Positions 4,765 through 24,946 of a stretch of 26,722 nt of DNA are shown here, piece by piece. Each line of letters begins with the position of its first letter. Positions within the stretch are counted from its first letter, which is position 1. Made by a program: the position numbers and the translations under genes. This DNA is from a virus. The stretch is taken from IMG/VR virus record IMGVR_UViG_3300042883_000704, positions 1-26,722 of that record. One strand, given 5' to 3'. Below the pieces are notes generated by a model. The model had not been told where the DNA came from, did not search any database, and worked only from the letters and a program-made list of their open reading frames with translations.

Positions 4765-5606
4765 CGTTCACAGAATTCGTGGCAGCGAGTGGGCTATCTA
4801 TCTCCCACCTCAAATCAAATGTTTGGGGCAGGGCGCGCATCGGTAACGAGCGCCAGGAGAATGCGTCTTATTTTTACGCGGGTGACTACGGATTCGTAAT
4901 GAATTGGAAAGACGGATCCGACAAAGTCTCGGTCTGGCAGCACGACAAAGAGATGACTCAACCTGATCGTGACGCCATGGCGCGACGCATGGCTGCATCA
5001 CAGACTGCGTACAAATTACAGAGAGAGGATGGGCGCAGGGAAGCAGCGAAGAAGGCCCAGGAGATACTCAAGGGGTGCAAGTTAGAACTTCATCCGTACC
5101 TCGCATCGAAGGGATTCCCCGATGCGGTCGGTAATATTTACTTTGAGAATTTCAACCCCGTCCTCGTTATTCCGATGACGTATCAAAAAAATATCTGCGG
5201 CGTGCAGACTATCGATGTCGGCGGTAATAAGAAATTTCTCTACGGCCAACGCACCAGCATGGCCCATCACACAATCGGATCGACAGGGCGCACTTACTTG
5301 GTTGAGGGGTATGCCTCGGCACTGTCACTGCGTGCGCTCCTGTGCGCCCTGAGCATCTCCCAGCACACCATCGTCGTGACGTTCAGTGCGAACAATCTGG
5401 GCAAGTTGGCAGCGAATTATCCTGGTGCGCTAGTAATAGCAGACAACGACGAATCAGGCACCGGGCAACGTGTTGCGGAGGCTACTGGACTGCAATGGTG
5501 GATGCCGGACGTTATTGGGCAAGACATTAATGACATGCACAAATCACTCGGGTTATTTAAAGCTTCGCAGATTTTGAGAAAGACCGTATCGAATTCGATG
5601 TTTTAA
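4761..5606 (+). CDS. Toprim-domain primase-like protein
   Basis: The ATG at 4761 overlaps the helicase stop and is preferred over an in-frame start 96 bases upstream inside the helicase gene. The 281-residue product has HPYLASKG at about 111-118, a beta-rich region, and a Toprim catalytic core: Glu182 in YLVEGYASAL and the Asp pair in VIADNDESG (D228, D230). This fits the primase family typified by plasmid and phage Toprim primases that make RNA primers. No N-terminal zinc finger is visible, unlike DnaG or T7 gp4; the neighbouring helicase carries a Cys cluster instead. The last codons overlap the late promoter-like repeat at 5597-5610. Confidence 0.85.
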   Translation: MTFTEFVAASGLSISHLKSNVWGRARIGNERQENASYFYAGDYGFVMNWKDGSDKVSVWQHDKEMTQPDRDAMARRMAASQTAYKLQREDGRREAAKKAQEILKGCKLELHPYLASKGFPDAVGNIYFENFNPVLVIPMTYQKNICGVQTIDVGGNKKFLYGQRTSMAHHTIGSTGRTYLVEGYASALSLRALLCALSISQHTIVVTFSANNLGKLAANYPGALVIADNDESGTGQRVAEATGLQWWMPDVIGQDINDMHKSLGLFKASQILRKTVSNSMF

Positions 5607-5610
5607 TTTA
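5597..5610 (+). promoter_or_regulatory. late promoter-like repeat, copy 1
   Basis: GATGTTTTAATTTA, the core shared by six plus-strand sites in this window, lies across the stop codon of the primase gene. Together with its downstream flank (CTGATAGATACTGA) it is nearly identical to copy 2 at 11349. It precedes a 340-base gene-free stretch and then the nuclease/NinB/NinG block. Confidence 0.6.
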
Positions 5611-5950
5611 CCTGATAGATACTGATTGCGTTTCAAGCTTTGCGAGTAGATGGGGATAACCACAGACCGGCGCAAGGTGAAGGGCAGCAAGAATGAGTGC
5701 AGGCTGCAGCGTGGGTGAATGTTAGAGCGCGCACTGGGATATTTGTGAGTTCGTTAAGTCGGGCGTCCGGGTCCATATGACTCGGCACAGATCATAAGTC
5801 TGACATTGCCGTAATGCGATAGGTGGCTCCAGTTTTGAGACATTTTCCGCGAAGGTGAACGAGGCCGGTTATTCGGGTCTTGGGATGAGTTTGCCTTTTG
5901 CTCCAGGTTCACCAGTTTTGAACTGAAGTCAAGAACACAAGGGGGGTAGG
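5607..5950 (+). other. gene-free region, possible untranslated RNA or leader
   Basis: No reading frame here looks coding; the best forward ATG frames stop within about ten codons. It begins at a promoter-like repeat and ends just before the TTG start of the next gene. It contains a 7-base inverted repeat (GGTGAAC at 5854-5860, GTTCACC at 5907-5913) and a 10-base direct repeat CCAGTTTTGA at 5829-5838 and 5912-5921. It could be a structured leader, a small RNA, an origin or the remnant of a lost gene. Confidence 0.45.
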
Positions 5951-6313
5951 TTGGGAGATAGAGAATCGGTTCTGCGGTGGCTGAAAAGAATTAAAGAGCC
6001 GGACGTTGAGCCGGTCATAAGGGCGTGCGAAAGGGACCCAGCGGCCCGCGCATATTTCCGCAAGCTTGCACATGTTGCTCCGGTGGAGATAGTCAAAGAG
6101 TGGATCCCTGATCTGCCGGCGCCGAAGAAGATTACACCAGAGCCGGTCTGCCATCGCTGCACGAATCGCAGACTGCAAGTAAGTGCTGGTCCAGTCTCGC
6201 TGCATACATGGATCTGCGAGTCGACCAAGAAAGCGCTTGGAAACAATTTTGATTTTCTGGCCGGGGTTGGACTACCGGTTAAATGTAAGGCGCGGACGGA
6301 GGAGATGGCATGA
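5951..6313 (+). CDS. small protein with CxxC motif, unknown function
   Basis: The frame starts with TTG at 5951, seven bases after a GGGGGG ribosome site, and its stop overlaps the ATG of the nuclease gene. The 120-residue product starts GDRESVLRWLKRIKEPDVEPVIRACERDP, a helical charged region. It has Cys67-x-x-Cys70 (CHRC) and a later WICES cysteine that could form part of a zinc site. I do not recognise the family. Its place as first gene of the accessory operon, coupled to a nuclease gene, is the only hint to its role. Confidence 0.6.
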   Translation: MGDRESVLRWLKRIKEPDVEPVIRACERDPAARAYFRKLAHVAPVEIVKEWIPDLPAPKKITPEPVCHRCTNRRLQVSAGPVSLHTWICESTKKALGNNFDFLAGVGLPVKCKARTEEMA

Positions 6314-6789
6314 ACGAAATCGAGGTAACACTGGGTGATGACGAATGGATGCTGTGCCAGATTATCGGCCGCAGCAGATCTCTCCTCGCCAGGGCAGGCA
6401 AAGTCACTGACGCGAAGCAGGGGTCACAGAATGGTCCTGATGCGGATGTATCCGGGTTCGCTGCAGAGTACGCATTCGCGAAACATCATAACGTATTCCC
6501 TGATTTTGGATTATCTATCCGGTCCGGGTCTGCTGACATGATCGTGAAGGGCCAGAAGATTGATGTGAAGTCGACCAATCGCACGAACGGTTGCTTAGTT
6601 TGCACTCTCAAGGAAAACGCCGACGTTGATGTGTACGTCCTAGCAATTACGGCAGACCTACCAAAAGTTCGCTTTGTTGGATTTGCACGGTCCGCGCAAT
6701 TGCGAGACAAGCAAAATATTAAAGATCTTGGTTGGGGTCGTCCAGGGTATGTGATGCCCCAACACGCGCTAACGAGTTTCGCTGCGTGA
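6310..6789 (+). CDS. PD-(D/E)XK-like nuclease
   Basis: The 159-residue protein has the layout of a small restriction-endonuclease-fold nuclease. A helix with GFAAEYAFAKHH carries Glu53, SADMI carries Asp76, and KIDVKST gives the D-x-K signature with Asp85 and Lys87. Small phage nucleases of this fold include Holliday junction resolvases and end-trimming enzymes; the exact substrate cannot be told. It overlaps both neighbours (ATGA upstream, GTGA to NinB downstream). Adjacency to NinB and proximity to NinG suggest a recombination or DNA processing role. Confidence 0.7.
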   Translation: MNEIEVTLGDDEWMLCQIIGRSRSLLARAGKVTDAKQGSQNGPDADVSGFAAEYAFAKHHNVFPDFGLSIRSGSADMIVKGQKIDVKSTNRTNGCLVCTLKENADVDVYVLAITADLPKVRFVGFARSAQLRDKQNIKDLGWGRPGYVMPQHALTSFAA

Positions 6790-7175
6790 AGCAAACATTC
6801 TATCTAGTCCACGCCCAAGCCCGCGCCTTGGCACTCAGAGCGCTCCTGGCTGCGGCGGATGGAGTATGCATCACGATCGGTATGGTCACGAGATCACTGG
6901 AACAGAACGCGGCGATGTGGCCGATTCTAACTGGGTTTAGTAAACAACTTATGTGGCCGGTCAATGGAGAGATGGTCTACATGAATCAGGAAGAGTGGAA
7001 GGATGTGCTGACTTGTGCCTTCCGGCAAGAGACTCCCCGGATCGCTGCAGGGATGAACGGAGGCAACGTGATGCTGGGATATAGAACAAGCAAATTCACA
7101 AAGGAAGGATTCTCCGAGTGGCTGGAGTTTCTAAACGCCACCGCAGCGGATCGGGGCGTGGAGGTGGAAGCATGA
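6786..7175 (+). CDS. ninB: NinB-like recombination mediator (lambda Orf family)
   Basis: I place the start at GTG 6786, which overlaps the previous stop (GTGA); the upstream ATG would extend into the nuclease gene. The 129-residue protein matches the NinB pattern: a SLEQNAAMWPIL segment, then NQEEWKDVLTCAFRQE, a GNVMLGYRTSKFTKEGFSEWLEFL stretch and a RGVEVE end. This parallels the lambda protein (SLDQN, WK-V-TAALKQ, STSRM-EF-ELLE, ERGV). NinB/Orf binds single-stranded DNA and loads annealing protein in lambda Red recombination. It probably works with the exonuclease of the leftward operon. Confidence 0.85.
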   Translation: MKQTFYLVHAQARALALRALLAAADGVCITIGMVTRSLEQNAAMWPILTGFSKQLMWPVNGEMVYMNQEEWKDVLTCAFRQETPRIAAGMNGGNVMLGYRTSKFTKEGFSEWLEFLNATAADRGVEVEA

Positions 7176-7390
7176 AAACAATTATCCATGTCAATCAGCA
7201 CAAGATCCGGGCAAACATAAAAAACAATGCGTTCGAGCCGGTGCTGACTGTGAAGACTTACAAGTCCAACACATATGCCCACGAGGTTGGAATACTGGGT
7301 CCGTCTAAAGTTGTCTACTCCCCAAACAAACCGTTGTCATGCGGCGCAAGAGTCTGGATCGAGACTGAATGCGAGGTTGTTACAACATGA
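7172..7390 (+). CDS. small conserved phage protein, 72 aa
   Basis: The ATG at 7172 overlaps the NinB stop (ATGA) and has a GGAGGTGGA ribosome site; this start gives MKTIIHVNQHKIRANIKNN. The product is beta-rich, with VLTVKTYKSNTYAHEVGILGPSKVVYSPNKPLSCGARVWIETE. The HVNQHKIRAN and PLSCGARVWIET segments look like a conserved small phage protein of unknown function (from memory). It sits inside the coupled accessory operon between NinB and a helix-turn-helix protein. Confidence 0.75.
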   Translation: MKTIIHVNQHKIRANIKNNAFEPVLTVKTYKSNTYAHEVGILGPSKVVYSPNKPLSCGARVWIETECEVVTT

Positions 7391-7593
7391 TCCATCAAAC
7401 TCCCTACAGCGCCAGAGAATTACGTTTTGCGGCAGGGCTGACTATCCCTGAGTTGTCTGGTCGGACAAGAATATCCGAGACTGATTTAGCGTTAGCCGAG
7501 AGGGGATGGAGATTAACGTCAGAGCAGTGGGTGACAATTCAACACATCTGCAATCCACGAATCGAAAAATTTAGAATGAGTGCTAGAGGATGA
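7387..7593 (+). CDS. small HTH protein, 68 aa
   Basis: The ATG at 7387 overlaps the preceding stop. Residues 6-40 (YSARELRFAAGLTIPELSGRT, then ISETDLALAERGWR) follow the XRE helix-turn-helix pattern: an A-G-L-T turn and a final E-R-G. It is close to a minimal DNA-binding domain with a short tail. It could regulate later genes or bind operator-like sites, but no target is evident. Its stop overlaps the next start. Confidence 0.7.
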   Translation: MIHQTPYSARELRFAAGLTIPELSGRTRISETDLALAERGWRLTSEQWVTIQHICNPRIEKFRMSARG

Positions 7594-7850
7594 CCACTAA
7601 AGACAAATGCATCCTGGGGTTCCTCGTTACATTTTTTTTCATGATGTGCTTGTTGCAGTACTACTCGCATAAGACATCGAGAGCGGCGCATAACAAAGAA
7701 CACAAAGAATGGATTCTCTCAGAACAGCGGACATGCGCTGATGGGGCAAGGTACTCAGTGATTAAGTTGGACGGGTCGCTCACATGTGTCTACGACGACC
7801 GGAGTAGGTACGGGTGGGCTGATCGCAGCAAAAAGGTTGAAATTAAATAA
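7590..7850 (+). CDS. small membrane-anchored protein, 86 aa
   Basis: The protein has a short polar N-terminus (MTTKDK), one hydrophobic helix at about residues 7-25 (CILGFLVTFFFMMCLLQYY) and a charged domain with two cysteines (C49 and C66 or close) that might form a disulfide if the C-terminus is periplasmic. It starts by overlapping the HTH gene stop and ends nine bases before the beta-helix gene, so the two may be made together. Function is unknown. Confidence 0.65.
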   Translation: MTTKDKCILGFLVTFFFMMCLLQYYSHKTSRAAHNKEHKEWILSEQRTCADGARYSVIKLDGSLTCVYDDRSRYGWADRSKKVEIK

Positions 7851-7859
7851 GAGGGGATT

Positions 7860-10070
7860 ATGAAAAAACTACTGAAAACATTATTTGTAATTGCAGCGCT
7901 CGGATCCGGGGTGGCACAGTCCGCTACTTACTACGTCGATGGGCGCGCTGGGATGGGCAGTGACGCGGCTAGTGGTCTGATCGGGCAGCCGTGGGCGACG
8001 CTGAATAAGTTACTCGTCAAATCACCGGCGCTAACTGCCGGAGACACTGTAATTTTAATGTGCGGGAGCGTCTGGCGTGAGTCGCTTACGATCGGTGGGG
8101 CGGGCGGTAACTCCACCTCGCCAATTACGATACGCGCAGAGACCGGGTGTACTGATGCTACTCGACCCGAGATCAATGGCTCGACCCCTATTACTACAGC
8201 CTGGACTCGAGTGGGCGTAACCAGTACATATTCGACGCCTCTCACGGCGACGTGGGTTCGCCAAGTTTTTGTGAATGGCCGATATTTGACCATTGCGCGG
8301 TACCCCGCTACTGGGTTTTTGGTGCCAATCCCAGGCAGCGCGGGGACTTTAGCTGCGGGCGTGGCGACACTGACAGACACTGCGGGCATCGGGGCGATGG
8401 TGGCGGCTGCAGGGGCATCAACTGTCCCGACAACTACGCCGGTTACTGACGATAATATAGCGGGCGGTGCTGCGATTTACATTCGTACTGTTGGCTGGAT
8501 TGTTGAAAGCGCTACCGTCAGCGCGACCGGTGGGATTACTGCGGGGAACACAGTTTTGAACATGGCCCCAGGCTCTTTCCAAGGGGTGGGGCAAACGGCA
8601 CTAGCGTACCAGCCTGGAACAAAACCCGGGGGCGTAAACGCTGCTGGATATTATCTGGTAAATAAGTTATGGATGCTGTCCGCGGCTCCTGGCTGGTATC
8701 ACGATGGCACAACATTGTATGTTCACCTCCCTGATGGAACAGCCCCGTCTAGCACCTCAGTAGGGCGCGTAGTCGAGGTATCTACAACCCCCCGCAACTA
8801 CGGTATTCAGTTAACTAATCAGCCGTATGTGAATATCAGCGGGATCAGGGTAAAACAGTTTGGGATGGATGGCATCATCGTGAGTAGCACAGAGTCAAAT
8901 TCAACTCTGAACCAGCACACTTTCAATGATATGCAAGTGCTGAACTCTGGGCAGAATGGAATCACATTCGCTAACGGTGCAGCCTCGCCGAACGGCCCGA
9001 CCGGAACAGTTAGCAACTCATATATTAATGAGAGCGTCATCGACGGGGTAAACCTATATTATACAAATAACGTCAACGTGATTAATAACCGGATCGAGAA
9101 CTCCGGTGTTACTGGCGGTCCTTTTAGAAGCAGGGGCGCGATTTGGGGTATGCAATCTAATAATATGGTCGCGACCGGGAACTCCATTTCACGGAGTGGC
9201 TACATCGGGATTCGCTTCCAAGGGAATGCTACCGTAAAAAACAACATAATCAAAGACTCATGCTTGGTACTCGATGATTGCGGTGGGATTTACGGATGGA
9301 ACAACCTAAATTCTATTCCGCTGAATTCTGTCATCTCAAATAATATTATTGAGAATGTGTACGGGAATCGATATGGAGATCCTGATTCTTTTACCGGAGC
9401 CACGGGGATTTATCTGGATGATACTGCGAGTTACGTCCAGGTTCGCGGGAATACCATTATCAATGCTGGGCAAGGGCTATACACCCACAATGGTTGGAAA
9501 AATGTTTTTGATAGTAATGTGATCGCTTATCCTCGCGTCGTCGCGATGGTGTCTGCGTTCGATTACATCACGCTTCAAAGTTTCTACCAGCAAGGGAATA
9601 TTTTTTCTAACAACACGGTGCTAAGTGGTAACCACCCAAATTTACAAATGTATTTTCATCTAGGCAGGCTCCCGTCAGAGAATATTACATCTGGCTTCCC
9701 TTTCCCGGTGCAAATCATGACGGCGAATAAGTACAGCGGGAATAGCGCGAACACCTTGATGTTTGTAAGGTCGATGGTTGGTACCTCGGGGTTTTCTGGT
9801 ACTGGGTCAGGCTCCACCGGCCCGGAGACTTTCGCGACGTTAGTGGGTAAAGCGAACCACGGCACATACCGCGTGATGCGGAAAGCCGCCGGGCTGATCG
9901 TGAATAAAACCGCAGCAAGCGTTAGCTATAACTGCGTCGCCTCCTCGTCTGGGATCACGATGTGGGAACTGAAGACCACTGACTGTCTCAATGCAAAGAA
10001 TTTCAACGGGACGAAAATTAAATACCCGGTCACGATCCCGCCCTACTCATCGCTGCCAGTATTCCAGTAG
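7860..10070 (+). CDS. secreted right-handed beta-helix protein, probable polysaccharide-acting moron
   Basis: The 736-residue product starts with a standard Sec signal peptide (basic MKKLLKT, hydrophobic LFVIAALGSGV, cleavage expected after AQSA). The mature protein begins TYYVDGRAGMGSD, a common opening of pectate-lyase-like parallel beta-helix proteins. Residues about 310-560 hold many N-x-I/V-x-x-N turns (NVNVINNRIENSG, NATVKNNIIKDSC, SVISNNIIENVYG, VQVRGNTIINAG), typical of PbH1 coils. The C-terminus is Gly/Ser-rich, then a small beta domain. Related folds cleave or bind polysaccharides. A signal peptide is not expected for a tail spike assembled in the cytoplasm, so lysogenic conversion is plausible. 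A weak SD (GAGGGGAT) precedes the start. Confidence 0.75.
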   Translation: MKKLLKTLFVIAALGSGVAQSATYYVDGRAGMGSDAASGLIGQPWATLNKLLVKSPALTAGDTVILMCGSVWRESLTIGGAGGNSTSPITIRAETGCTDATRPEINGSTPITTAWTRVGVTSTYSTPLTATWVRQVFVNGRYLTIARYPATGFLVPIPGSAGTLAAGVATLTDTAGIGAMVAAAGASTVPTTTPVTDDNIAGGAAIYIRTVGWIVESATVSATGGITAGNTVLNMAPGSFQGVGQTALAYQPGTKPGGVNAAGYYLVNKLWMLSAAPGWYHDGTTLYVHLPDGTAPSSTSVGRVVEVSTTPRNYGIQLTNQPYVNISGIRVKQFGMDGIIVSSTESNSTLNQHTFNDMQVLNSGQNGITFANGAASPNGPTGTVSNSYINESVIDGVNLYYTNNVNVINNRIENSGVTGGPFRSRGAIWGMQSNNMVATGNSISRSGYIGIRFQGNATVKNNIIKDSCLVLDDCGGIYGWNNLNSIPLNSVISNNIIENVYGNRYGDPDSFTGATGIYLDDTASYVQVRGNTIINAGQGLYTHNGWKNVFDSNVIAYPRVVAMVSAFDYITLQSFYQQGNIFSNNTVLSGNHPNLQMYFHLGRLPSENITSGFPFPVQIMTANKYSGNSANTLMFVRSMVGTSGFSGTGSGSTGPETFATLVGKANHGTYRVMRKAAGLIVNKTAASVSYNCVASSSGITMWELKTTDCLNAKNFNGTKIKYPVTIPPYSSLPVFQ

Positions 10071-10072
10071 CC

Positions 10073-10255
10073 ATGAGGTGTTTGAAGTGCGGTGGTGAGA
10101 TGCTCCCCGGCAAAGCGATACAGCAAACTTGGGTTGGGGAGCCAGACTTTCTAAACGGGCGGGTGGTCACTATGTCGCCTGGCGGACCCGGCCAATTAAT
10201 AGATTGCGAGAAGTGCGTTAGTTGTGGGTGGTCAATCACGGTGCCTGCAGAGTGA
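10073..10255 (+). CDS. small zinc-ribbon protein, 60 aa
   Basis: The protein has two CxxC knuckles, CLKC near the N-terminus and CVSC near the C-terminus, with conserved-looking GKAIQQTWVGEPDF and SPGGPGQLIDCEKC segments between them. This resembles a widespread small phage zinc-ribbon protein of unknown function. Its stop overlaps the GTG start of NinG, so the two are translationally coupled. It begins two bases after the beta-helix gene ends. Confidence 0.75.
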   Translation: MRCLKCGGEMLPGKAIQQTWVGEPDFLNGRVVTMSPGGPGQLIDCEKCVSCGWSITVPAE

Positions 10256-10758: not shown

Positions 10759-10791
10759 AGAGTTATACATCATTAACAGAGTACCGGCGGC

Positions 10792-10866: not shown

Positions 10867-10891
10867 AAAGCTATGCATGTTGCGTCAGATT

Positions 10892-10916
10892 AATAACTTT
10901 TGCGTTATTTTATATA
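10892..10916 (+). promoter_or_regulatory. AT-rich inverted repeat and possible promoter before small late regulator gene
   Basis: AATAAC (10892-10897) and GTTATT (10904-10909) form an inverted repeat, followed by TATATA (10911-10916), a possible -10. No convincing -35 is placed at 17 bases. It precedes the gene at 10930 by a few bases, so the strong AGGAGGAG ribosome site lies immediately downstream. Confidence 0.3.
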
Positions 10917-11187: not shown

Positions 11188-11350
11188 TTTTTCTGAGAAG
11201 CAAATACAAAGAAATAATGCAAAGTTATTCGCCAAGTTCCTCCAGCCAGGCGAGTTGAATGTTCATAACGAACCAGAACCAAAACCAGATATCCCAACCG
11301 AAGAGGAGTTCCTCGCCTTCATCCGAGTGAGGAAGTGGCTAGGAATTTGA
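11180..11350 (+). CDS. small protein, 56 aa, before terS
   Basis: The frame starts at ATG 11180, overlapping the end of the preceding gene by eight bases, with an AAAAGGGTG ribosome site, and ends at TGA 11348-11350 inside the late promoter-like repeat. The product is MLNFSEKQIQRNNAKLFAKF, then a proline-rich linker (EPEPKPDIPTEEE) and a FLAFIRVRKWLGI end. The overlap and coherent composition favour a real gene. I do not recognise it. Confidence 0.55.
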   Translation: MLNFSEKQIQRNNAKLFAKFLQPGELNVHNEPEPKPDIPTEEEFLAFIRVRKWLGI

Positions 11351-11362
11351 TGTTTTAATTTA
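11349..11362 (+). promoter_or_regulatory. late promoter-like repeat, copy 2
   Basis: The core GATGTTTTAATTTA with flank GCTGACAGATACTCA lies 20 bases before the small terminase ATG. It is almost identical to copy 1 at 5597 over about 34 bases. A transcript starting just downstream would have a very short leader with no obvious ribosome binding site. Confidence 0.65.
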
Positions 11363-11382
11363 GCTGACAGATACTCAGACCA

Positions 11383-11931
11383 ATGACAAAAGAGTTGACG
11401 GCGCAGGGTTCCCAGTACATCGAGGAGTACATCCAAAATGGGGGGAACGCGAAGCAGGCAGCCCTATCCACAGGCTATACAAGCGCCCGCGCACCGGTCC
11501 AGGCGAATGTTGGCACTGAGTTAGTTAAGCGTGTCAAGAAGCTGGGTGAGAAGTACAAGATCAAGACTGGCAGGGTGCTGAAAGAGTACGCGCAGATCGC
11601 TTACTTCGATCCGCGAGAGTTGTTTGATAAGAAGACGGGGAAGCAAATCCCGATCCATCTACTCCCGGCGAATATCGCTGCAGTGATCTCAGGATTTGAG
11701 ATTGACGAGAACGGCACGCAGCGGTTGAAATTTTGCAGTAAGCATTCAGCATTAATTGAATTAGGTAAGTTCCTCAACCTTCCCGGTGCCAGAGAAGTGG
11801 TGGTGCAGGGCGGGGACACCTTTATCAATGTCTCAATGAATGACAAGGCTCGGAGAGTGGCATTCTTACTCCGATCCGCACTAGAGCAAGAAGAACCCGA
11901 GGACAGTCGGATACTGTCAGAGTCCATATAA
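11383..11931 (+). CDS. terS: terminase small subunit
   Basis: The 182-residue protein begins with an HTH-like DNA-binding region (QYIEEYIQNGGNAKQAALSTGY) and continues with VGTELVKRVKKLGEKYKIKTGRVLKEYAQIAYFDPRELFD, characteristic of Terminase_2 small subunits. A later segment, LIELGKFLNLPG, is also family-like. The protein recognises the packaging site and recruits the large subunit. It is placed 20 bases after late promoter-like copy 2 without a clear Shine-Dalgarno sequence. Unusually, the large subunit gene is about 6 kb downstream, separated by virion and spike genes. Confidence 0.85.
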   Translation: MTKELTAQGSQYIEEYIQNGGNAKQAALSTGYTSARAPVQANVGTELVKRVKKLGEKYKIKTGRVLKEYAQIAYFDPRELFDKKTGKQIPIHLLPANIAAVISGFEIDENGTQRLKFCSKHSALIELGKFLNLPGAREVVVQGGDTFINVSMNDKARRVAFLLRSALEQEEPEDSRILSESI

Positions 11932-12812: not shown

Positions 12813-12844
12813 AGGACACCTCCCACAAAGGGGTGTCCTTTTTT
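12813..12844 (+). terminator. intrinsic terminator
   Basis: AGGACACC (12813-12820) pairs with GGTGTCCT (12832-12839), extendable by two pairs, with loop CCACAAA and a T tract to 12844. It ends the terS unit, and late promoter-like copy 3 begins at the very next base. Confidence 0.9.
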
Positions 12845-12858
12845 GATGTTTTAATCCG
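12845..12858 (+). promoter_or_regulatory. late promoter-like repeat, copy 3
   Basis: GATGTTTTAATCCG follows directly on the T tract of the terminator at 12813-12844 and precedes the spike cassette by about 40 bases. The GATGTTTTAAT core is identical to copies 1, 2 and 5; the downstream flank is different. Confidence 0.65.
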
Positions 12859-12897
12859 CTCGAGTTAGCATCAAGAGGATTACGGAGACTCAAGAAT

Positions 12898-13245: not shown

Positions 13246-15342
13246 ATGACACTAAGAGCCGTAGCAGCCCCCGCAGCAGCGACGGTATCTACATCTGCTG
13301 TATCAACATTCCCGGCTAAAACTGATTTTAGAGATTACGGACGTCGAGTCGCGTCGTGGTCGACGGCAGGGTATACGACAAAGCCCGCTCCCACTGATAT
13401 TGCGGTAGAACTGTATGACTTCCCTCCAACGCTGGATCTGGGTGGGATGATCAGGACCATGAAGCTGCAAAAAACAACCGACGCCACGCCCACCTTTATT
13501 CAGCAATCCCCCATCGATTACGCCTCGCTCACCACCGTTTCGCTCCAAGGGTACTTGCCGGACGGTACTACCACGCTTGGATTTAGCGCTGGGATCTGGG
13601 TGAAAAATCCAATGAGCCGGACGCTAAATTTTGAACTGAAATTCTACAACAAGAATGCGAACACATCAGTCTGGTGGAAAGCTGCGGCCGACCCTTCCAG
13701 TCTATTCCCAGAGACGAACGGCTGGGTGTTCCTGACGTTCTCTCCGAATACTCGCGTAAACAGCGGCACCGTGTGGGCTGCTGGTGTTGATACAGTAAGT
13801 TATGTGAGAGTGACGCAAGTAGATGATGGGGATGAAGGGCCGTGGGAAGGTGGGGAGTATTTACTAATAAGCAGTGTCTACGTCGATTGCGCCGCTAGGT
13901 CCACATTTATGCTGGGATTTGATGACGGCACATCGGATCAACGAAATCCCACCTTAACACCTATCACATCCGGGGGCAGCCCAGTTACATCATGCACCGC
14001 AACGACAGTAATAATGACAACCGCACCAGTTCCTCCGCTGATAGTCGGGGCTGCGATTAAATTTACCGGTCAATCAACGGTCGTCGGCGGGGTCGGGGTT
14101 ACGTTTGTTCCGACAGGGCTGATTGCCGGCACGAAGTACTACGTCTCTTCGACCGAGGCCACCGGTTTAATTTATGGGCTGACAACGGATGCATTGTTTA
14201 CAACACCTGTCGCGATGACGCCTGAGACTAAGACATGTCACTGGACGTATGCCGGGAAGCAGCTTCGGAGTTCACAGCAGATCGTTGAATCATACGGTTT
14301 CAAGGGGAATCTATTTATTGTTCCGTCGTGGTTGGATACTAATGGTACTTATGGGTACACATCTGGGCCAAATAAATTCCTCACCACTGCCGAGTTAATT
14401 GAAATGCATAACGAGGGGTGGTCTGTCGGTTCACATTCAAACACTCACCCCTCTAACAACGAAAGCGCGGGTCTTCGTCTACTCGGTCCTTATGGTTATT
14501 TCTTGTCGAACACTTTTGACAATATGTCGTTAACCTACTGCACATACCGGTCGATCACTGCGGGGAATGGCCGACGCAGAGCAATCTCTTCAGCAGCGAA
14601 TACCGTCACATTTGAGAATGCTCACAAATTCTTACTCAACCAACCGGTTGTATTTACTGATTCCGCGCCGGGAACCATGGTCGTTGGAACTACATACTAT
14701 GTTCAGTTCATTGGTAGCGTGACGACATGCGTTTTTGCAACCGACCAGGGAAGTATGGTTAGTCTAGTCACTCCCGGCACTTGGTCTGGTGTTGCAAACT
14801 ATCGTTACCCGGGGTCAACGAATGATTCGACCGCAATCCTTGCAGATATCGAAGCGGGTATCGCTGCCCTTGATGCAATCGGGATAACTTCCGGCCGCGA
14901 TTATTTTGCGCTTCCGCAAGGCTCTTATGATGAATATGTAAGACAGGCGTGTATCACGGCAAAATTGGGCTGGGTGCGCGGCGTACATAATAAAGTAAGT
15001 ACGATCATGGTAGGGAAACCGTCGGGCGGCGGTCTGAGTGGGCAAATCGAATCCGGCGGATGGATGTCTCAAGTGGACGCGATCCAGACTGATGGTGCTA
15101 CTACAGCCGGGGTTACTAGCCCGCCGGTGTGGTCGGTAGACCCAGCTATAGCATCGATCAAAAGATACGTCGATGACGTGGTAACGCTGGGGGCCTGCGG
15201 GTGTTCGTACCATCACAACGTCGGGAACAGTGTACTCGCCAGCCTTGATTGGACTTGTGCATACCTCAAGACTAAATCTGACGCCGGGGTCCTCGACGTC
15301 ATCACGCTCGATCAGATGGCGAGTCGCCAGGTCAGAACATGA
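13246..15342 (+). CDS. tail spike with NodB-type polysaccharide deacetylase domain
   Basis: The 698-residue protein has a beta-sandwich N-terminal region (to about residue 220), then a carbohydrate esterase 4 (NodB) domain. Motif 1 is FDDG (residues 225-228), motif 2 is HSNTH (397-401), a motif-3-like stretch is YFALPQGSY (553-561) and a late motif holds YHH (His656, His657). CE4 enzymes remove acetyl groups from sugars, so the spike probably deacetylates the host capsule or O-antigen. Two beta-rich inserts (about 235-336 and 443-520), both with a GT-x-YYV core, split the catalytic motifs. It starts right after the previous stop and overlaps the next start. Confidence 0.8.
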   Translation: MTLRAVAAPAAATVSTSAVSTFPAKTDFRDYGRRVASWSTAGYTTKPAPTDIAVELYDFPPTLDLGGMIRTMKLQKTTDATPTFIQQSPIDYASLTTVSLQGYLPDGTTTLGFSAGIWVKNPMSRTLNFELKFYNKNANTSVWWKAAADPSSLFPETNGWVFLTFSPNTRVNSGTVWAAGVDTVSYVRVTQVDDGDEGPWEGGEYLLISSVYVDCAARSTFMLGFDDGTSDQRNPTLTPITSGGSPVTSCTATTVIMTTAPVPPLIVGAAIKFTGQSTVVGGVGVTFVPTGLIAGTKYYVSSTEATGLIYGLTTDALFTTPVAMTPETKTCHWTYAGKQLRSSQQIVESYGFKGNLFIVPSWLDTNGTYGYTSGPNKFLTTAELIEMHNEGWSVGSHSNTHPSNNESAGLRLLGPYGYFLSNTFDNMSLTYCTYRSITAGNGRRRAISSAANTVTFENAHKFLLNQPVVFTDSAPGTMVVGTTYYVQFIGSVTTCVFATDQGSMVSLVTPGTWSGVANYRYPGSTNDSTAILADIEAGIAALDAIGITSGRDYFALPQGSYDEYVRQACITAKLGWVRGVHNKVSTIMVGKPSGGGLSGQIESGGWMSQVDAIQTDGATTAGVTSPPVWSVDPAIASIKRYVDDVVTLGACGCSYHHNVGNSVLASLDWTCAYLKTKSDAGVLDVITLDQMASRQVRT

Positions 15343-17983: not shown

Positions 17984-18002
17984 CTGACAAGGGTCGTAAT
18001 TT

Positions 18003-18016
18003 GATGTTTTAACACG
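18003..18016 (+). promoter_or_regulatory. late promoter-like repeat, copy 4
   Basis: GATGTTTTAACACG is preceded by TAATTT, so the shared core extends upstream, and it lies about 20 bases before the large terminase ATG. The flank ACATACTCTC resembles copies 1 and 2 (AGATACT). No terminator is visible before this copy. The leader would be very short and without a clear ribosome site. Confidence 0.65.
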
Positions 18017-18035
18017 ACCGACATACTCTCGACGG

Positions 18036-19595: not shown

Positions 19596-19611
19596 CTTTT
19601 AGGAGAAGCAC

Positions 19612-19800
19612 ATGGGCGGAATGTTCAGCAAGCCTAAAGCACCACCACCACCACCACCACCACCGGTAATCCCGAAGCCAGAAGTAATTCCCTTGGCTGA
19701 TCAAAATAGCGCGAATGCATATTACAAAAAGCGCGCCGCTAAAACTCAGACGGGTCGAGTGTCCACAATAATGGACTCTGGTCACGATAGGCTGGGTTAA
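19612..19800 (+). CDS. small proline-rich protein, 62 aa, before portal
   Basis: The ATG follows TTTTAGGAGAAGC, a good ribosome site. The product is MGGMFSKPKAPPPPPPPPV, then a helical ANAYYKKRAAKTQTGR and a TIMDSGHDRLG tail. Its C-terminus resembles that of the next protein (K/R-rich helix, G-R-x-S-T, DxLG). Small proteins with a poly-proline stretch next to the portal are common in podovirus-like genomes; their role is unclear, possibly connected with the head-tail junction. The proline tract is coded by an ACC triplet repeat. Confidence 0.7.
   Translation: MGGMFSKPKAPPPPPPPPVIPKPEVIPLADQNSANAYYKKRAAKTQTGRVSTIMDSGHDRLG
19641..19664 (+). repeat. ACC trinucleotide repeat, eight units
   Basis: Eight tandem ACC triplets encode the proline stretch of the gene at 19612. 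Being in frame with the gene, unit gain or loss would change the number of prolines without shifting the frame. Confidence 0.9.
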
Positions 19801-20262
19801 TTGGCTCCACCCATGATCATCCCGTTTCTTATGGAGATGGGAACCATGATGTCCGCTGCAGCTTCCAGCACTGCGATGGCTGCGGCGGCTGGTGAGGCCG
19901 CGTTGTGGGGGGCTGGTGCGGCGTCAACGATGGGTATCGCTGCGGCACCAGTGTCCGCAATCAGTGGGTTAGCACTCGGCTCAGGATTGGCCGCTGCGGC
20001 GGCGTCTCCAATCGTCGGTGCATTTGATGCAGTCGGCTCAACGATGGCGGTGGCGGGTGCAACACAGGCAATGGCACCCAAAATGCAAATGCCGTCAGTC
20101 GAATCGCCACTCCCAGTGATGGAGACCGCGATCACGATGCCAACGATGGATACTGAGGCGCTCAACGAGGTCCGTAAGCGGTCATACCTAGCACAATCTC
20201 AGCGCGGTGGGCGGGCATCCACCATGCTGTCGAATGACGATCACCTCGGGGGCGGGCTTTAA
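19801..20262 (+). CDS. alanine/methionine-rich protein, 153 aa
   Basis: A TTG start at 19801 directly follows the preceding stop; an ATG at 19813 is an alternative. The product is extremely rich in Ala, Met, Gly and Ser, with hydrophobic runs (SAAASSTAMAAAAGEAALWG, ISGLALGSGLAAAAASP). It ends with a helix and RGGRASTMLSNDDHLGGGL, which parallels the tail of the 62-residue protein before it. It ends directly at the portal start. Such Ala-rich sequences may be ejected or membrane-associated proteins, but no function can be assigned. Confidence 0.6.
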   Translation: MAPPMIIPFLMEMGTMMSAAASSTAMAAAAGEAALWGAGAASTMGIAAAPVSAISGLALGSGLAAAAASPIVGAFDAVGSTMAVAGATQAMAPKMQMPSVESPLPVMETAITMPTMDTEALNEVRKRSYLAQSQRGGRASTMLSNDDHLGGGL

Positions 20263-21906
20263 ATGCTGGCAGACTATCTAAAGAAACAAGGGAATGAACT
20301 GTTCAGTAAACGCAGTTCAGTTCTCGCGCTGTGGCAGCAGATCGCAGAAAATTTTTACCCAGAGCGTGCAGACTTTACCGGCGCTCGGAATGCTGGTGGA
20401 GATTTAGCGAAAGGTCTTGCAACCGGGTACCCCGTTCTGATGCGGCGCGATCTCGGTGACTCCATTGGATCAATGCTACGCCCAACGAGTAAAGCCTGGG
20501 CGCACGCAAGGGTCGCGAATTGGGATGATGTGAGTACCGAAGCCCGCGCATGGCTCGAGATCAGAGAAGAGCGTATGCGTCACGAGATGAACCAGGCCGA
20601 CACGCAGTTCACTAGAGCAACCAAACAAGCTGACCATGATTTCGCAGCGTTCGGCCAAGCGGTAATTCAGATCAGTCTAAACAGTAAGGCAAATGGATTA
20701 CTCTACAGGTGCTGGCACCTGAGAGACGTGGCCTGGATGGAAAATACCGACGGTGGTATTGGCTGCGTTTATAGAAAATGGAAAGCGACAGCTGCGGACC
20801 TTCAAAGATTTTTCCCGAAGACATTGCATCCGAGCGTCAAAGAAAAATTAGATAAGGACCCGTACTGCGAATTCGAGATCTGGCACTGCGTAATCGAGTC
20901 CGATGTCTACGTTGACCCGCTCGGAAAGAAATACAACACCCCGTTCATCTCGGTTTATCTGGATGTGAAAAATGCTCACATCATGGAAGAGGTCGGGATG
21001 AAGACAAATGAATATGTCATCCCACGGTGGTCCTTGGTCTCGGGCAGCCAGTATGCATACAGCCCGGCTGTTGTGGTTGGACTAGCTGATGCACGGACAC
21101 TGCAAGAGATGACCATCACCCTTCTAGAGGCGGGCGAGAAAGCTGTCACCCCACCGATGTTAGCTGTGCATGGCGCGCTACGCAGTGACGTTAATGTCAT
21201 GGCGGGTGGATTGACTTGGGTAGACAGAGAGTATGACGAACGGTTGGGTGAGGTTCTACGTCCTCTGACACAAGATAAGTCCGGTATCCCAATAGGTTTC
21301 AACATGGCCCAAGATGTACGGGCGCAACTGCACGAAGCATTCTATTTATCTAAGCTTTCACTCCCCCCTCCCCAGGGCGAGATGACGGCTTACGAAACAG
21401 GGCAGCGAGTACAGGAATATATCCGTCACGCGCTGCCACTCTTCCAGCCTCTGGAGATGGAATACAACGCACCGATTTGCGAGAACACGTTTGACCGGTT
21501 GCTACTCGCTGGAGTGTTCGGATCACCTTGGGATATCCCAGAGGAACTCCGTAACCGCGAGGTTGAGTTCACATTCGAGAGTCCATTACACGACGCCATC
21601 GAACGCGAGAAGGGCCAGCGATTCCTTGAGGCGACTTCGATCATCGCCAACGGTGCGGCCGCAGATCCAAGCGTTGCACATTTACTCGATGTGAAATTAG
21701 CCACCAGAGACGTACTGCAAAGCACCGGTGTTCCTACAACGTGGCTACGCTCAAAACCGGCAGTCGATGCCCTGGTCGAGCAGGACAAACAAGCACAACA
21801 AACCGCAGCCCTGCTGCAGCAGATGGAACAAGGTGCCAAGGTCGCTCAATTGATCGGTCAGACTGCCGCACCATCCGGCACCCTTAATACCGGCGCCGCA
21901 ATATGA
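20263..21906 (+). CDS. portal (head-to-tail connector) protein
   Basis: The 547-residue protein resembles the T7 gp8-like head-tail connector family. Visible are LADYLKKQGNELFSKRSSVL, NFYPERADFTG, the DLGDSIGSMLRPTSKAWAHA segment, DVAWMENTDGGIGCVYRKW and VVVGLADARTLQEMTITLLE. Later come KAVTPPM, FYLSKLSLPPP, MTAYETGQRVQEYIRHALPL and a Gln-rich tail. The portal forms the dodecameric ring through which DNA is packaged and to which the short tail attaches. It abuts the previous stop and overlaps the next start by ATGA. Confidence 0.92.
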   Translation: MLADYLKKQGNELFSKRSSVLALWQQIAENFYPERADFTGARNAGGDLAKGLATGYPVLMRRDLGDSIGSMLRPTSKAWAHARVANWDDVSTEARAWLEIREERMRHEMNQADTQFTRATKQADHDFAAFGQAVIQISLNSKANGLLYRCWHLRDVAWMENTDGGIGCVYRKWKATAADLQRFFPKTLHPSVKEKLDKDPYCEFEIWHCVIESDVYVDPLGKKYNTPFISVYLDVKNAHIMEEVGMKTNEYVIPRWSLVSGSQYAYSPAVVVGLADARTLQEMTITLLEAGEKAVTPPMLAVHGALRSDVNVMAGGLTWVDREYDERLGEVLRPLTQDKSGIPIGFNMAQDVRAQLHEAFYLSKLSLPPPQGEMTAYETGQRVQEYIRHALPLFQPLEMEYNAPICENTFDRLLLAGVFGSPWDIPEELRNREVEFTFESPLHDAIEREKGQRFLEATSIIANGAAADPSVAHLLDVKLATRDVLQSTGVPTTWLRSKPAVDALVEQDKQAQQTAALLQQMEQGAKVAQLIGQTAAPSGTLNTGAAI

Positions 21907-22181
21907 CCCGTCGCGTAACCGCGCCACCTCCGTACCTCCCGCCCGATTGGATCCCCGCCGACGCATCAGCAATTCAAGCGCTGGTGCGTGGGGACGCCAC
22001 ATCAGATCAGCAACAAAGAGCGATCAACTGGGTCGTCTACGCCGCTGCAGCCACCAACGACCTAGAGTACCGCACCGACCCAAGGGATCACGCCTTCGCA
22101 TCGGGTCGCCGGTTCGTTGGTCTGCAAATTAATAAGATGATCGGAGTTAACGTGAACGCAATCGTGAACGCAAAGCAATGA
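21903..22181 (+). CDS. conserved phage protein, 92 aa
   Basis: The gene overlaps both neighbours by ATGA. The product has PPYLPPDWIPADASAIQALV, then TSDQQQRAINWVVYAAAAT and a conserved-looking ASGRRFVGLQINKMIG segment. The GRRFVG pattern is usual for a small protein found between portal and scaffold genes of several podovirus-like genomes (from memory, unnamed). It is predicted as a small helical protein. Function unknown; position suggests a head morphogenesis role. Confidence 0.7.
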   Translation: MTRRVTAPPPYLPPDWIPADASAIQALVRGDATSDQQQRAINWVVYAAAATNDLEYRTDPRDHAFASGRRFVGLQINKMIGVNVNAIVNAKQ

Positions 22182-22621
22182 GTACCGTCGCTTGGGATGG
22201 GACGCACTTAGTCGGGGATTGTCAGGCGACATGGGGCGGGACCCCAGTCAAGACTCACAAGGTCATGCACGTTCCATACAAAGGTACCACCTATCTAATT
22301 GGGTGGGCTGGCAATGAAGCGCAGGGAATTAGGTTCGTCGAGCATTTCACCAAAAAGGGTTTAGCTGGCCGACCAGAGTTATCTGACGGTACTGAAATTC
22401 TTGTGATCTGCCGCAATTGGGCGAAGGTCGAATCCGGCCGGGATACCTCCGACATCATGAACGAACCGCGCTGGGCAATTGGATCAGGCGCCGAGTTCGC
22501 CATGGGTGCGATGTACGCTGGGGCCACTGCTGAACAGGCAGTCCAGATCGCCACCACATTAGATGTTTATACCGGAATGGGTATAGAAAAGATTTGTTTT
22601 AACCACGTCGAGGAGCAATAA
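22178..22621 (+). CDS. proteasome/HslV-like Ntn hydrolase, candidate prohead protease
   Basis: The 147-residue protein starts MSTVAWDGTHLVGDCQATWG. This is the proteasome beta/HslV start, in which a Thr near the N-terminus (Thr3, or Ser2/Thr3) becomes the nucleophile after Met removal. It is followed by KTHKV, a YLIGWAGNEAQG turn, WAIGSGAEFAMGAMYAGATAEQAVQIA and LDVYTGMGIE, all usual in HslV-like folds. In a phage it would sit next to scaffold and capsid genes and could process head proteins. Being directly before scaffold supports this. It also might be inactive, or degrade host proteins. Confidence 0.75.
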   Translation: MSTVAWDGTHLVGDCQATWGGTPVKTHKVMHVPYKGTTYLIGWAGNEAQGIRFVEHFTKKGLAGRPELSDGTEILVICRNWAKVESGRDTSDIMNEPRWAIGSGAEFAMGAMYAGATAEQAVQIATTLDVYTGMGIEKICFNHVEEQ

Positions 22622-22624
22622 AAT

Positions 22625-23515
22625 ATGGAATCAGAAATCGTCGCAGACCCGGCCATGGAGACCGTCACCTCTGTCGTTTCAGAACCAGCAGAAGTAATCC
22701 CAACCCAAGCACCACCCGTTGTAGATTGGCTTGCAGAGCGCACCGCCATTGCAAACGGCGACCCGAAGATCTTAAACCGGCTGGGTCGTTATACCACCAG
22801 AGACGACGCGATCCGCGCCGGAGTAGAGGCTCAGAATAAGATCGGATCCATCAGGGCGACACAACCAATCAATGCAGACTCATCCCCAGAAGATATTGCT
22901 GCTTTCCGGCAAGCGAACGGAGTTCCCGAATCTGCCGACAAATATCAAATTAATCTGAGTGATGGGCTAATCATTGGCGAGAATGACCGGCCAGTTGTGG
23001 ACCATTTTCTGGGTATTGCTCACAAGCACAATCTTTCTAATGCCGTTACATCGGACATCATCTCTGGGCAACTAGCACTACAAGAGACGATGATTGAACA
23101 GCGCGCCGCGTCGGACCGAGAGTCACTCACTCAGGCTCGTGCAGTGCTATCGTCGAACGATGTCTGGGGCAGTGAGACCAACCTCAATATTAATTTGATC
23201 CACGGGCTGTTAGATGGCGCGCCAGAGGGTGTCAAAGACCAGTTGGTTAACGGTCGGATGCAAGACGGCACCCCGATATTCAATCACGCGCCGACACTGC
23301 AGTGGTTGGCATCAATTGCTCGTGAAGCGAACCCGGTCGCAACCGTTGTGCCAGGCTCTGGTGCTAACGGCATGATGTCGATTGATAATGAAATCAAATC
23401 AATTGAAGATGCCCGCCGCACCAACCCAGACTCGTACTGGAAGAGCCAGCCAACACAGGATCGGTTGACCGCATTGCTCGGCGCTAAGTCTCTAGCAGAG
23501 GCGAAGTACCGCTAA
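22625..23515 (+). CDS. scaffold-like head assembly protein
   Basis: The 296-residue protein is acidic and helix-rich with an N-terminal low-complexity part (EIVADPAMETVTSVVSEPAE). A scaffold-like SSPEDIAAFRQANGVPESAD-KY segment follows, and the charged tail is SYWKSQPTQDRLTALLGAKSLAEAKY. The position between a putative prohead protease and the major capsid gene fits a scaffolding protein that shapes the prohead and is then removed. An SD (GAGGAG) lies within the end of the preceding gene. A strong terminator follows at 23539. Confidence 0.8.
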   Translation: MESEIVADPAMETVTSVVSEPAEVIPTQAPPVVDWLAERTAIANGDPKILNRLGRYTTRDDAIRAGVEAQNKIGSIRATQPINADSSPEDIAAFRQANGVPESADKYQINLSDGLIIGENDRPVVDHFLGIAHKHNLSNAVTSDIISGQLALQETMIEQRAASDRESLTQARAVLSSNDVWGSETNLNINLIHGLLDGAPEGVKDQLVNGRMQDGTPIFNHAPTLQWLASIAREANPVATVVPGSGANGMMSIDNEIKSIEDARRTNPDSYWKSQPTQDRLTALLGAKSLAEAKYR

Positions 23516-23538
23516 GGTAATGGTTATTATCTAAACCT

Positions 23539-23592
23539 GTATCGTAAAGTAGTCATTAGAAGGCTTACTGACTATTTTACGGTACGTTTTTT
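23539..23592 (+). terminator. strong intrinsic terminator after scaffold
   Basis: A 17-base stem, 23539-23555 with 23569-23585 and two G-U pairs, is followed by T6 at 23587-23592. It stops the terL-portal-scaffold unit immediately upstream of late promoter-like copy 5, which starts at the next base. Confidence 0.9.
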
Positions 23593-23606
23593 GATGTTTT
23601 AATTTA
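23593..23606 (+). promoter_or_regulatory. late promoter-like repeat, copy 5
   Basis: GATGTTTTAATTTA follows directly on the terminator's T tract, giving the core TTTGATGTTTTAATTTA. It leads into an untranslated leader of about 140 bases before the major capsid gene, so it would let capsid be transcribed separately and strongly. Confidence 0.7.
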
Positions 23607-23752
23607 GTCGCATTAATATCAAGGCTGCAAGAAATAGGCCCGTGTAGCTAGAATACCCGACCCTCCCGACGAGGCACCCGGCGAAGCACGCGACAGGCAC
23701 CCCGAAATCTTTGCGATAGGTATTTCTATTTCAATATTTTAAGGAGCCAATC
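23607..23752 (+). other. untranslated leader of the major capsid gene
   Basis: This stretch has no gene. It contains a C/G-rich middle (about 23648-23705) and a possible long-range inverted repeat, AGAAATA at 23630-23636 with TATTTCT at 23721-23727, closing around it. It ends with TTTTAAGGAG before the capsid ATG. A long structured leader could stabilise the capsid message. Confidence 0.35.
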
Positions 23753-24583
23753 ATGGCCGCATCAGCACCAATGATCCAGTACAGGCAGGAATTTATCCAA
23801 GGTTTTGAACAAGCCCAATCTCTTGCACGCGATACAGTAACAACCGAAGCCGTCATCAAAGGCGACCGCGCCACATTCCTCGTAGCTGACTCTGGCAATT
23901 CAGATGCAGTAACTCGTGGTCTGAATGGTCTGATCCCTGGACGCGCCGACAATCTGAACCCGATGACAGCGACATTAGTCGAATGGCATGATAAGCCAGT
24001 CAAGACCGGTTTCAATATTTTCTCAAGCCAAGGCGATCAGCGTCGAATCATGCAAATGACATCGATGGCAACTATCAATCGCAAAGTCGACCAGACCATC
24101 ATTACTGAACTGAACACCGGCTCGGTAAACACTGGTGTTGCAGACAAAGCGTCCTTGAGTTTAGTTTTGTACGCTACCACGATTCTAGGTAATAACAGCG
24201 TTCCTTTGGATGGCAATGTCAGCGCGTTAATCACGCCTGCCTTCTACGCTTATCTGATGCAAACTAAGGAATTCACCAACAATGAGTACGTCAATAACAA
24301 GCCTTTTTCAGGACAAATGACTATGTTCCGTTGGGCTGGTGTGAACTTCATTGTTCATCCTAACCTACCAGGAAAAGGCACGAACGCTGAGAAGTGTTTC
24401 ATCTACCACAAGAGCGCGATAGGCCATGCAATTAACCGCAACGATATCGAATACGTTCCTGGTTATGATGAAGAGAACGACTACTCTTACGCAAGATGCT
24501 CGGTCTACATGGCCGCTAAGATCTTGCAGAACACCGGCGTTGTAGTTGTTAACCACGACGGCTCGGCATTCGCAGCAGCGTAA
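23753..24583 (+). CDS. major capsid protein
   Basis: The 276-residue protein follows the scaffold gene and a dedicated promoter-like element, as is usual for the major head protein. Sequence features are MAASAPMIQYRQEFIQGFEQ, a short helical start, beta-rich VEWHDKPVKTGFNIFSSQGD, IITPAFYAYLMQTKEF-like segments, FRWAGVNFIVHPNLPGKG and a PGYDEENDYSYARCSVYMAA stretch near the end, consistent with HK97-type coat proteins in overall pattern. The length is short for an HK97 coat but acceptable. Expression is probably high, given the strong SD (AAGGAG) and its own promoter-like element. Confidence 0.85.
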   Translation: MAASAPMIQYRQEFIQGFEQAQSLARDTVTTEAVIKGDRATFLVADSGNSDAVTRGLNGLIPGRADNLNPMTATLVEWHDKPVKTGFNIFSSQGDQRRIMQMTSMATINRKVDQTIITELNTGSVNTGVADKASLSLVLYATTILGNNSVPLDGNVSALITPAFYAYLMQTKEFTNNEYVNNKPFSGQMTMFRWAGVNFIVHPNLPGKGTNAEKCFIYHKSAIGHAINRNDIEYVPGYDEENDYSYARCSVYMAAKILQNTGVVVVNHDGSAFAAA

Positions 24584-24590
24584 TAACGAC

Positions 24591-24609
24591 AGCCCCTTCG
24601 GGGGCTTCT
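24591..24609 (+). terminator. short hairpin, possible attenuating terminator
   Basis: AGCCCC-TTCG-GGGGCT (24591-24606) is a stable UUCG-capped hairpin followed by TTCTT, a weak T tract. It lies between the capsid gene and the next gene and could reduce downstream expression. It could also act as a 3' mRNA stabiliser. Confidence 0.55.
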
Positions 24610-24630
24610 TAAACTTTTTGGAGATTCATC

Positions 24631-24927
24631 ATGGCCTACGCAATAACCGATCCATTTATCTGTATGACTCACGCAGCCCTGGCTGTTGGTCCTCGCATTT
24701 GGTATCACTCATCTGCTGATGCACTCGCCGCAGTAAACACCGGCAACTTTATTACAAACGGAACCGCATTAGGTCTGCGCGCTGGTGACTACGTTCTACA
24801 CCGTGATACGACCGCTGCCACTGGCGACACCACCCTACATATGGTCCTCTCAGTCGCACCCACTTACCCAGGTCTAGTCGACTTGACAGACGGCACATTA
24901 GTTGCTGCGGGCGCTAACGCAGACTAG
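24631..24927 (+). CDS. small head-associated (decoration-like) protein, 98 aa
   Basis: The product begins MAYAITDPFICMTHAALAVG and has a beta-rich pattern (GPRIWYHSSADALAAVNTGN, LGLRAGDYVLHRDTTAATGD, HMVLSVAP) with few charged residues. It follows the capsid gene after a short attenuating hairpin, as many decoration or head-completion proteins do. It is probably a minor capsid component, but a family was not recognised. TTTTTGGAG before the ATG is a good ribosome site. Late promoter-like copy 6 starts within a few bases after its stop. Confidence 0.6.
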   Translation: MAYAITDPFICMTHAALAVGPRIWYHSSADALAAVNTGNFITNGTALGLRAGDYVLHRDTTAATGDTTLHMVLSVAPTYPGLVDLTDGTLVAAGANAD

Positions 24928-24932
24928 TTTTT

Positions 24933-24946
24933 GATGTTTTAGTCTG
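24933..24946 (+). promoter_or_regulatory. late promoter-like repeat, copy 6
   Basis: GATGTTTTAGTCTG carries the TTTTTGATGTTTTA core but has AG instead of AA at the end, the most divergent copy. It precedes an intrinsic terminator (24962-24991) and then the gene at 25009, unlike copies 3 and 5, which follow terminators. Confidence 0.5.

Follow-up and report, generated by a model that had tools for sequence, protein, structure and literature searches.

Six copies of a short repeat, GATGTTTTA, occur in a 26,722-base IMG/VR fragment of an uncultured podovirus-like phage (IMGVR_UViG_3300042883_000704; the whole stretch is referred to here as the window). Comparison of this repeat with its counterparts in related phages points, with high probability, to a family of sigma70-type promoters with a lineage-specific extended -35 element. 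That such promoters are, in addition, served by a phage-encoded activator bound at the extension is considered probable, the two claims being taken jointly and with correspondingly less assurance.

A closed set of six plus-strand repeats

In the window, GATGTTTTA begins at positions 5597, 11349, 12845, 18003, 23593 and 24933 of the plus strand, with no copy being found on the minus strand, as compared to the 0.15 copies expected from shuffled sequence. The original prediction was thus correct as to number, strand and position, as it was in placing all copies in intergenic gaps or across stop codons. Indeed, the primase gene (4785-5606) ends with a TAA inside copy 1, and the TGA in copy 2 is the stop codon of g11180. 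Over the 17-mer, copies 2 and 5 show no mismatch, copy 1 shows one, copies 3 and 6 show three and copy 4 shows four, while copies 1 and 2 share 91% identity over 33 nucleotides (nt). When a weight matrix was built from the six copies, these scored 30-33 bits, the runner-up site in the window scored 7 bits and random sequence reached 9-12 bits. No weaker copies were thus detected in the window by matrix scan, such that the repeat corresponds to a closed set of six, with no gradient of weak matches.

A -10-like hexamer at fixed distance from each copy

Examination of the sequence following each copy revealed a -10-like hexamer of the form xAxxxT exactly 17 nt downstream of TTGATG in all six cases. 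For copies 1-6, these hexamers read GATACT, GATACT, TAGCAT, TACTCT, TAATAT and TAAATT, respectively, with the A at position 2 and the T at position 6 being invariant. Downstream of the core, just three columns do not vary, namely G at +19, A at +24 and T at +28, as numbered from the first T of TTGATG. Among 20,000 random sextets, no case arose of an invariant A being followed, at a distance of four columns, by an invariant T.

Judged from its sequence, the repeat core is the -35 half of a promoter, comprising a -35 element and the promoter-proximal part of the spacer (TTGATG-TTTTAAT). The TTTTAAT that follows the hexamer would extend the -35 element from about -29 to -23. All six copies present the layout of a sigma70-type promoter (-35 TTGAnn, -10 with A2 and T6, spacer of 16-18 nt), with copy 1 containing TCGATG instead of TTGATG. 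The -10 hexamers in the window are weak, matching TATAAT at only three or four of six positions. The earlier statement that no -35 is shared by the copies is wrong in effect, since the core is itself the -35; the -10 had been missed because a -35 was sought upstream of the core. Conservation of AxATACT downstream of copies 1, 2 and 4, also noted at that time, holds for copies 1 and 2, whereas in copy 4 the match is offset by 2 nt. The coordinates of the predicted elements and of the neighboring terminators are listed in Table 1.

Table 1. Predicted promoter elements and terminators in the window.
Feature	Position	Strand	Remarks
Copy 1 -35 and extension (TTCGATGTTTTAAT)	5594..5607	+	hexamer TCGATG 5595-5600; overlaps primase stop codon
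Copy 1 predicted -10 GATACT	5618..5623	+	spacer 17
Copy 2 -35 and extension	11346..11359	+	upstream of small terminase gene 11383
Copy 2 predicted -10 GATACT	11370..11375	+	spacer 17; TerS ATG 7 nt after -10
Copy 3 -35 and extension	12842..12855	+	heads g12898 and deacetylase block
Copy 3 predicted -10 TAGCAT	12866..12871	+	spacer 17
Copy 4 -35 and extension	18000..18013	+	upstream of large terminase gene 18036
Copy 4 predicted -10 TACTCT	18024..18029	+	spacer 17; TerL ATG 6 nt after -10
Copy 5 -35 and extension	23590..23603	+	heads major capsid gene 23753
Copy 5 predicted -10 TAATAT	23614..23619	+	spacer 17
Copy 6 -35 and extension	24930..24943	+	heads g25009 and tail genes
Copy 6 predicted -10 TAAATT	24954..24959	+	spacer 17
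Intrinsic terminator upstream of copy 3	12813..12844	+	stem 12813-12839; T tract supplies first T of TTGATG
Terminator-like hairpin and T6	23540..23592	+	between scaffold gene and copy 5; -18.8 kcal/mol, z -5.6
Intrinsic terminator after copy 6	24960..24992	+	stem begins right after copy 6 -10

Related phages carry the same layout with differing extensions

Searches with capsid, portal and terminase sequences revealed many metagenomic relatives of the window phage. In the following, WIN refers to the window, while G and L numbers refer to the metagenomic relatives and records compared. This architecture recurs, at the same boundaries between genes, in related uncultured podoviruses. Specifically, at the orthologous boundaries before the large terminase gene (terL), before the major capsid gene (mcp) and after g24631, TTGAxx-N17-TAxxxT is found in many relatives, even in those without the extension. 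In part of the clade, and not in the whole of it, an extension is repeated at several blocks, reading TTGATA-TTTTAAT in G18, G42 and G43, TTGATA-TATKAAT in G20, TTGATG-TTATACA in G29/G30 and TTGATA-TATGCG in G31/G32. G42 and G43 contain seven copies each, with a strand split of 7:0 in both. The proposal of a phage-specific promoter family with one coding-strand copy per gene block is accordingly retained and can be extended to families of the same kind in relatives. Assignment of the family to late transcription only is not, as copy 1 of the window lies between the primase gene and the NinB/NinG region, i.e., in the early/middle region, and as one copy in each of G20, G42 and G43 would drive the first rightward operon, which encodes a cro-like helix-turn-helix (HTH) protein and primase.

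Spacing was also considered at 22 sites from WIN, G18, G20, L049 and L078 that had been selected on the motif only, with no use being made of the -10. At each of these (22/22), xAxxxT was present at 16-18 nt, as opposed to 15.3% of background TTGATR sites (n = 733). Further sites in G42 and G43 agreed in 14 of 14 cases. Sites from G29-G33, found with a pattern that included the -10, were left out of the count. Because of common descent among the sites, the strength of the evidence is overstated by nominal probabilities.

Exact GATGTTTTA is mostly absent from relatives. Non-conservation of the family was, nonetheless, rejected, given that the orthologous boundaries carry the same architecture. 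Repeated k-mers in L009, L019 and L033 were set aside as being different from the promoter family. Cultured phages yielded only remote matches to the window capsid. No comparable family was found in Limnohabitans phage DC33, nor was one of this kind found in those prophage-like loci of bacterial genomes that were scanned. The DC33 record (PQ492659.1; L249) is filed as Inoviridae despite a 39-kilobase (kb) genome and a tailed-phage-like large terminase.

The two halves of the promoter evolve differently

When WIN, G18, G20 and G29 were compared, agreement at positions 6-13 was 0.82 within a genome, as opposed to 0.59 for a given orthologous site in different genomes (permutation p 0.0005). For the -10 hexamer, agreement was 0.43 within a genome versus 0.61 at the same site. 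This contrast between extension and -10 persisted when G42/G43 and G30 were substituted. Across the remainder of the spacer, identity within genomes was only 0.35, which argues against recent copying of long segments. The base distinguishing TTGATG from TTGATA has changed in step at nearly all sites of a genome, whereas the -10 has diverged site by site. A short element changing in concert at its six or seven sites would be the trace expected of co-evolution with a trans-acting factor, and the pattern of the extension suggests a lineage-specific factor of this sort near -30. As the trans partner, a host factor differing between hosts could serve as well as a phage protein.

Terminators and terminase gene starts

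As had been noted, two copies directly follow a T tract, namely copy 3, preceded by a canonical intrinsic terminator, and copy 5, preceded by a strong, terminator-like hairpin and T6. At copy 6, the predicted start (about 24966) falls within the left arm of the stem of the terminator that follows. The stability of this terminator, -16.8 kcal/mol at full length, falls to -6.0 when folding begins at the predicted start. Since a transcript initiated at the predicted +1 would be without most of the left arm, transcripts arriving from upstream should stop at this position, while new ones should escape. In the seven genomes measured, the terminator stem after g24631 consistently begins 1-2 nt past the -10. 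In L004, L009 and L021, where there is no extension, a terminator stem is likewise seen by eye close to the -10 at this boundary.

In WIN, G18, G29 and G30, the -10 is followed at 6 nt by the ATG of terL (at 8 nt in G42/G43), while in WIN, G42 and G43, the ATG of the small terminase gene (terS), or of the gene in its place, is found 6-7 nt past the -10. With transcription beginning at the usual +1, these distances of 6-8 nt predict that the terminase genes begin at about the transcription start and that their mRNAs are leaderless.

Inverted repeats span the -35 in, for instance, L049 (13 bp), G01 (13 bp) and window copy 6 (7 bp), and some capsid promoters carry a long inverted repeat with the -35 in its loop. 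This was rejected as a general feature, with only 9 of 35 sites, mainly capsid promoters, presenting p < 0.05.

A possible activator of the promoter family

Each rightward gene block would be served by one of the six repeats, acting as a sigma70-type phage promoter. The simplest reader of their -35 and -10 elements would be host RNA polymerase with its primary sigma factor. In the preferred reading, a phage-encoded DNA-binding activator, possible on the evidence described above, would be seated at about -30, where it would switch on gene blocks separated by terminators; the presence, identity and activating sign of this protein are postulated here. Activation is preferred because the -10 elements are poor, every block is provided with a promoter of its own and the repressor region of the window contains no copy of the element, with a different repeat, AATACTTA, being found there. 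Moreover, weak -10 elements are expected of activator-dependent promoters, in support of such dependence.

The putative activator would resemble T4 MotA in position, with no homology being implied. As in T4 middle promoters, a phage element near -30 is found at a fixed distance from a sigma70 -10; WWWTGCTTTA, the MotA box, is separated from the -10 by 12 ± 1 nt (PMC2988021). In the window, GATGTTTTA ends 12 nt before the -10 in all six copies, i.e., at the T4 spacing. By contrast to T4 middle promoters, the TTGA of a normal -35 is kept here and the -10 elements are poor.

Genes that could encode the relevant factor were sought. T7-type RNA polymerase (PF00940) was absent from the window, itself a fragment, and from G18, G20, G29-G33, G42 and G43 (T7 control, E 1e-109). 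Sigma70 region 4 (PF04545) was not found in the window or its relatives, with controls being positive. These results speak against the earlier proposal of a phage single-subunit RNA polymerase or sigma factor, several of the relatives being 50-55 kb long. G20, G29, G42 and G43 are 52-55 kb contigs of which completeness has not been established, and the window is without a large part of its genome. No homologue of MotA (PF09158) or AsiA (PF09010) was detected, with T4 controls being positive and the window itself being a fragment. Phage_antitermQ (PF06530) gave no match in the 11 records tested, with a positive control, other Q families and AlpA not being tested.

Several observations weigh against the activator. 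T4 middle promoters depend on an excellent -10, and the window promoters have no such element. A clade-limited zinc-finger protein was rejected as regulator, as it is absent from G42/G43, which carry the element. A shared small HTH protein was likewise rejected as the lineage-specific factor, as its recognition helix is nearly the same across differing extensions. Indeed, no regulator gene was found among the candidates examined, and no common phage activator is evident because the early genes of the window are unrelated to those of G20/G29. In addition, all relatives bearing the extension are metagenomic contigs.

A giant protein of 2.2-3.9 thousand residues is encoded after the tail genes (L137:1645-8277), with homologues in G20, G29 and G33. 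It contains LPD22 near the N-terminus and a conserved HE..HF motif mid-protein, and belongs to phrog_9880, of unknown function. Its candidacy as a virion RNA polymerase was rejected, as inspection by eye revealed no RNA polymerase motif in it and no match in the PDB was obtained.

Alternative readings of the extension

The extension could instead be the operator of a phage repressor, overlapping the -35 of each rightward promoter such that the blocks would be shut off directly in the lysogen. The operators and stoperators of cluster A mycobacteriophages are short, asymmetric, intergenic, found in one orientation and lineage-specific, may overlap a promoter and show the same genome-correlated divergence (PMC6550527). 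The window element shares this short, asymmetric, single-orientation, intergenic and lineage-specific character and overlaps the -35. Furthermore, the window contains an XRE repressor-like gene, and the copy in the promoter of the first rightward operon of G20, G42 and G43 is placed as an operator might be. Yet only six or seven copies are seen here, as opposed to 20-30, and each is accompanied by a -10 at 16-18 nt, whereas stoperators are mostly not associated with promoters. Nor is any copy found near the window repressor gene, with none in the repressor and early control region (1-5590), where AATACTTA is found instead. An operator function is thus considered unlikely. Much the same, low probability is assigned to a set of plain host sigma70 promoters, copied from place to place in the genome and relying on no extra factor, their uniform extension reflecting duplication or homogenization. 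The -35/-10 layout is ordinary, relatives at similar distance carry ordinary promoters at the same places, and copies 1 and 2 are similar enough to recall duplication. In particular, the promoters of L004, L005, L009 and L021 share with those of the window their gene boundaries, TTGAxx-N17-TAxxxT and overlap with the terminator after g24631, and differ in having no shared -35 extension. Recent duplication, however, would have carried flanking sequence, whereas identity drops sharply past the extension. Also against this reading, one base has changed in step at nearly all sites of a genome, with the -10 changing site by site.

For loading of a Q/AlpA-like antitermination factor onto RNA polymerase, with the resulting complex passing downstream terminators, the odds appear poorer still. 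The elements used by lambda Q and AlpA (QBE, ABE) lie inside a sigma70 promoter, between the -35 and -10, with terminators just downstream (PMC7969949, PMC7171158), and the window copies also adjoin terminators. Still, critical bases of the AlpA element lie at -25 to -20 (PMC7969949), whereas the window element starts at the -35 and its conserved part is promoter-distal (-36 to -23). Moreover, there are many promoters per genome, processive antitermination would be needless with one promoter per block, the copy 6 start inside the stem would already disarm the terminator, and PF06530 was absent from the records searched.

Least probable by far is the earlier reading of the core as an extended -10 promoter (TGnTTTAAT) or as the promoter of a phage RNA polymerase or sigma factor. 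TGTTTTAAT does resemble TGnTATAAT, and ATTTAGCTGACA in copy 2, by eye only, resembles the SP6 promoter, counted here in favor of a phage polymerase. Sigma70, however, needs A at -11 of the -10 element, as in TGnTAnnnT, and a T occupies this position in all six copies; the variants seen in relatives do not preserve the resemblance, while xAxxxT is found 17 nt downstream. Furthermore, the distance to that downstream hexamer varies between 16 and 18 nt, as for sigma70, and none of the searches for a phage polymerase or sigma factor, the giant protein included, yielded a candidate.

Were the activator-assisted promoters to be confirmed, there would be at least four diverged promoter families (WIN, G18/G42/G43, G20 and G29/G30) at the same gene boundaries, offering a direct route to a phage transcription factor that acts at the -35. 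It is tentatively proposed, as a claim more doubtful than probable, that these podoviruses encode a transcription factor of a type not yet described, by which an extended -35 (TTGATR and 7 nt) is read on host RNA polymerase, and that factor and six or seven promoters co-diverged into mutually distinct specificities, alongside terminator-stem promoters and leaderless terminase mRNAs. The same outcome would provide predicted start sites and an annotation rule for this group of uncultured podoviruses, as well as two compact devices, namely a promoter starting in the terminator stem of the preceding operon and terminase genes starting at +1. If the extension needs no factor, then this would be an ordinary host-type promoter set.

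Other features of the window phage and its relatives

The window encodes a T7-like head-tail connector, NinB, NinG and an XRE repressor-like protein. AATACTTA is found at 1721, 1919 and 2334 (rc), around the XRE repressor-like gene (1989-2306, minus strand). These repeats may be operators of this repressor and are separate from the GATGTTTTA family.

The leader of the capsid mRNA (window 23620-23752 and orthologues) is conserved throughout the group, with GGCCCCG, GGACACCC and GGACACCCCGAA appearing in this order before the ribosome site. No Rfam match was obtained for this leader, nor was a convincing structure predicted with RNAalifold. Around the first GGNNACCC, a helix scored 4.20, versus 3.72 ± 0.12 for shuffled partners. 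The leader is a candidate for a new RNA element or protein-binding leader element.

Two related basic proteins of 204 and 232 residues are encoded in G20 (L138-L140) at 11885 and 17425 (reverse-complement contig coordinates), before terL and before the capsid promoter, respectively. By eye, these are homing-endonuclease-like, and relatives are present in G30 and G34.

Finally, a 736-residue right-handed beta-helix protein with an apparent signal peptide is encoded between the NinB and NinG genes (window 7860-10070), and a 698-residue protein containing a polysaccharide deacetylase domain is encoded between the terminase subunit genes (window 13246-15342). Both are possibly receptor or depolymerase cargo.

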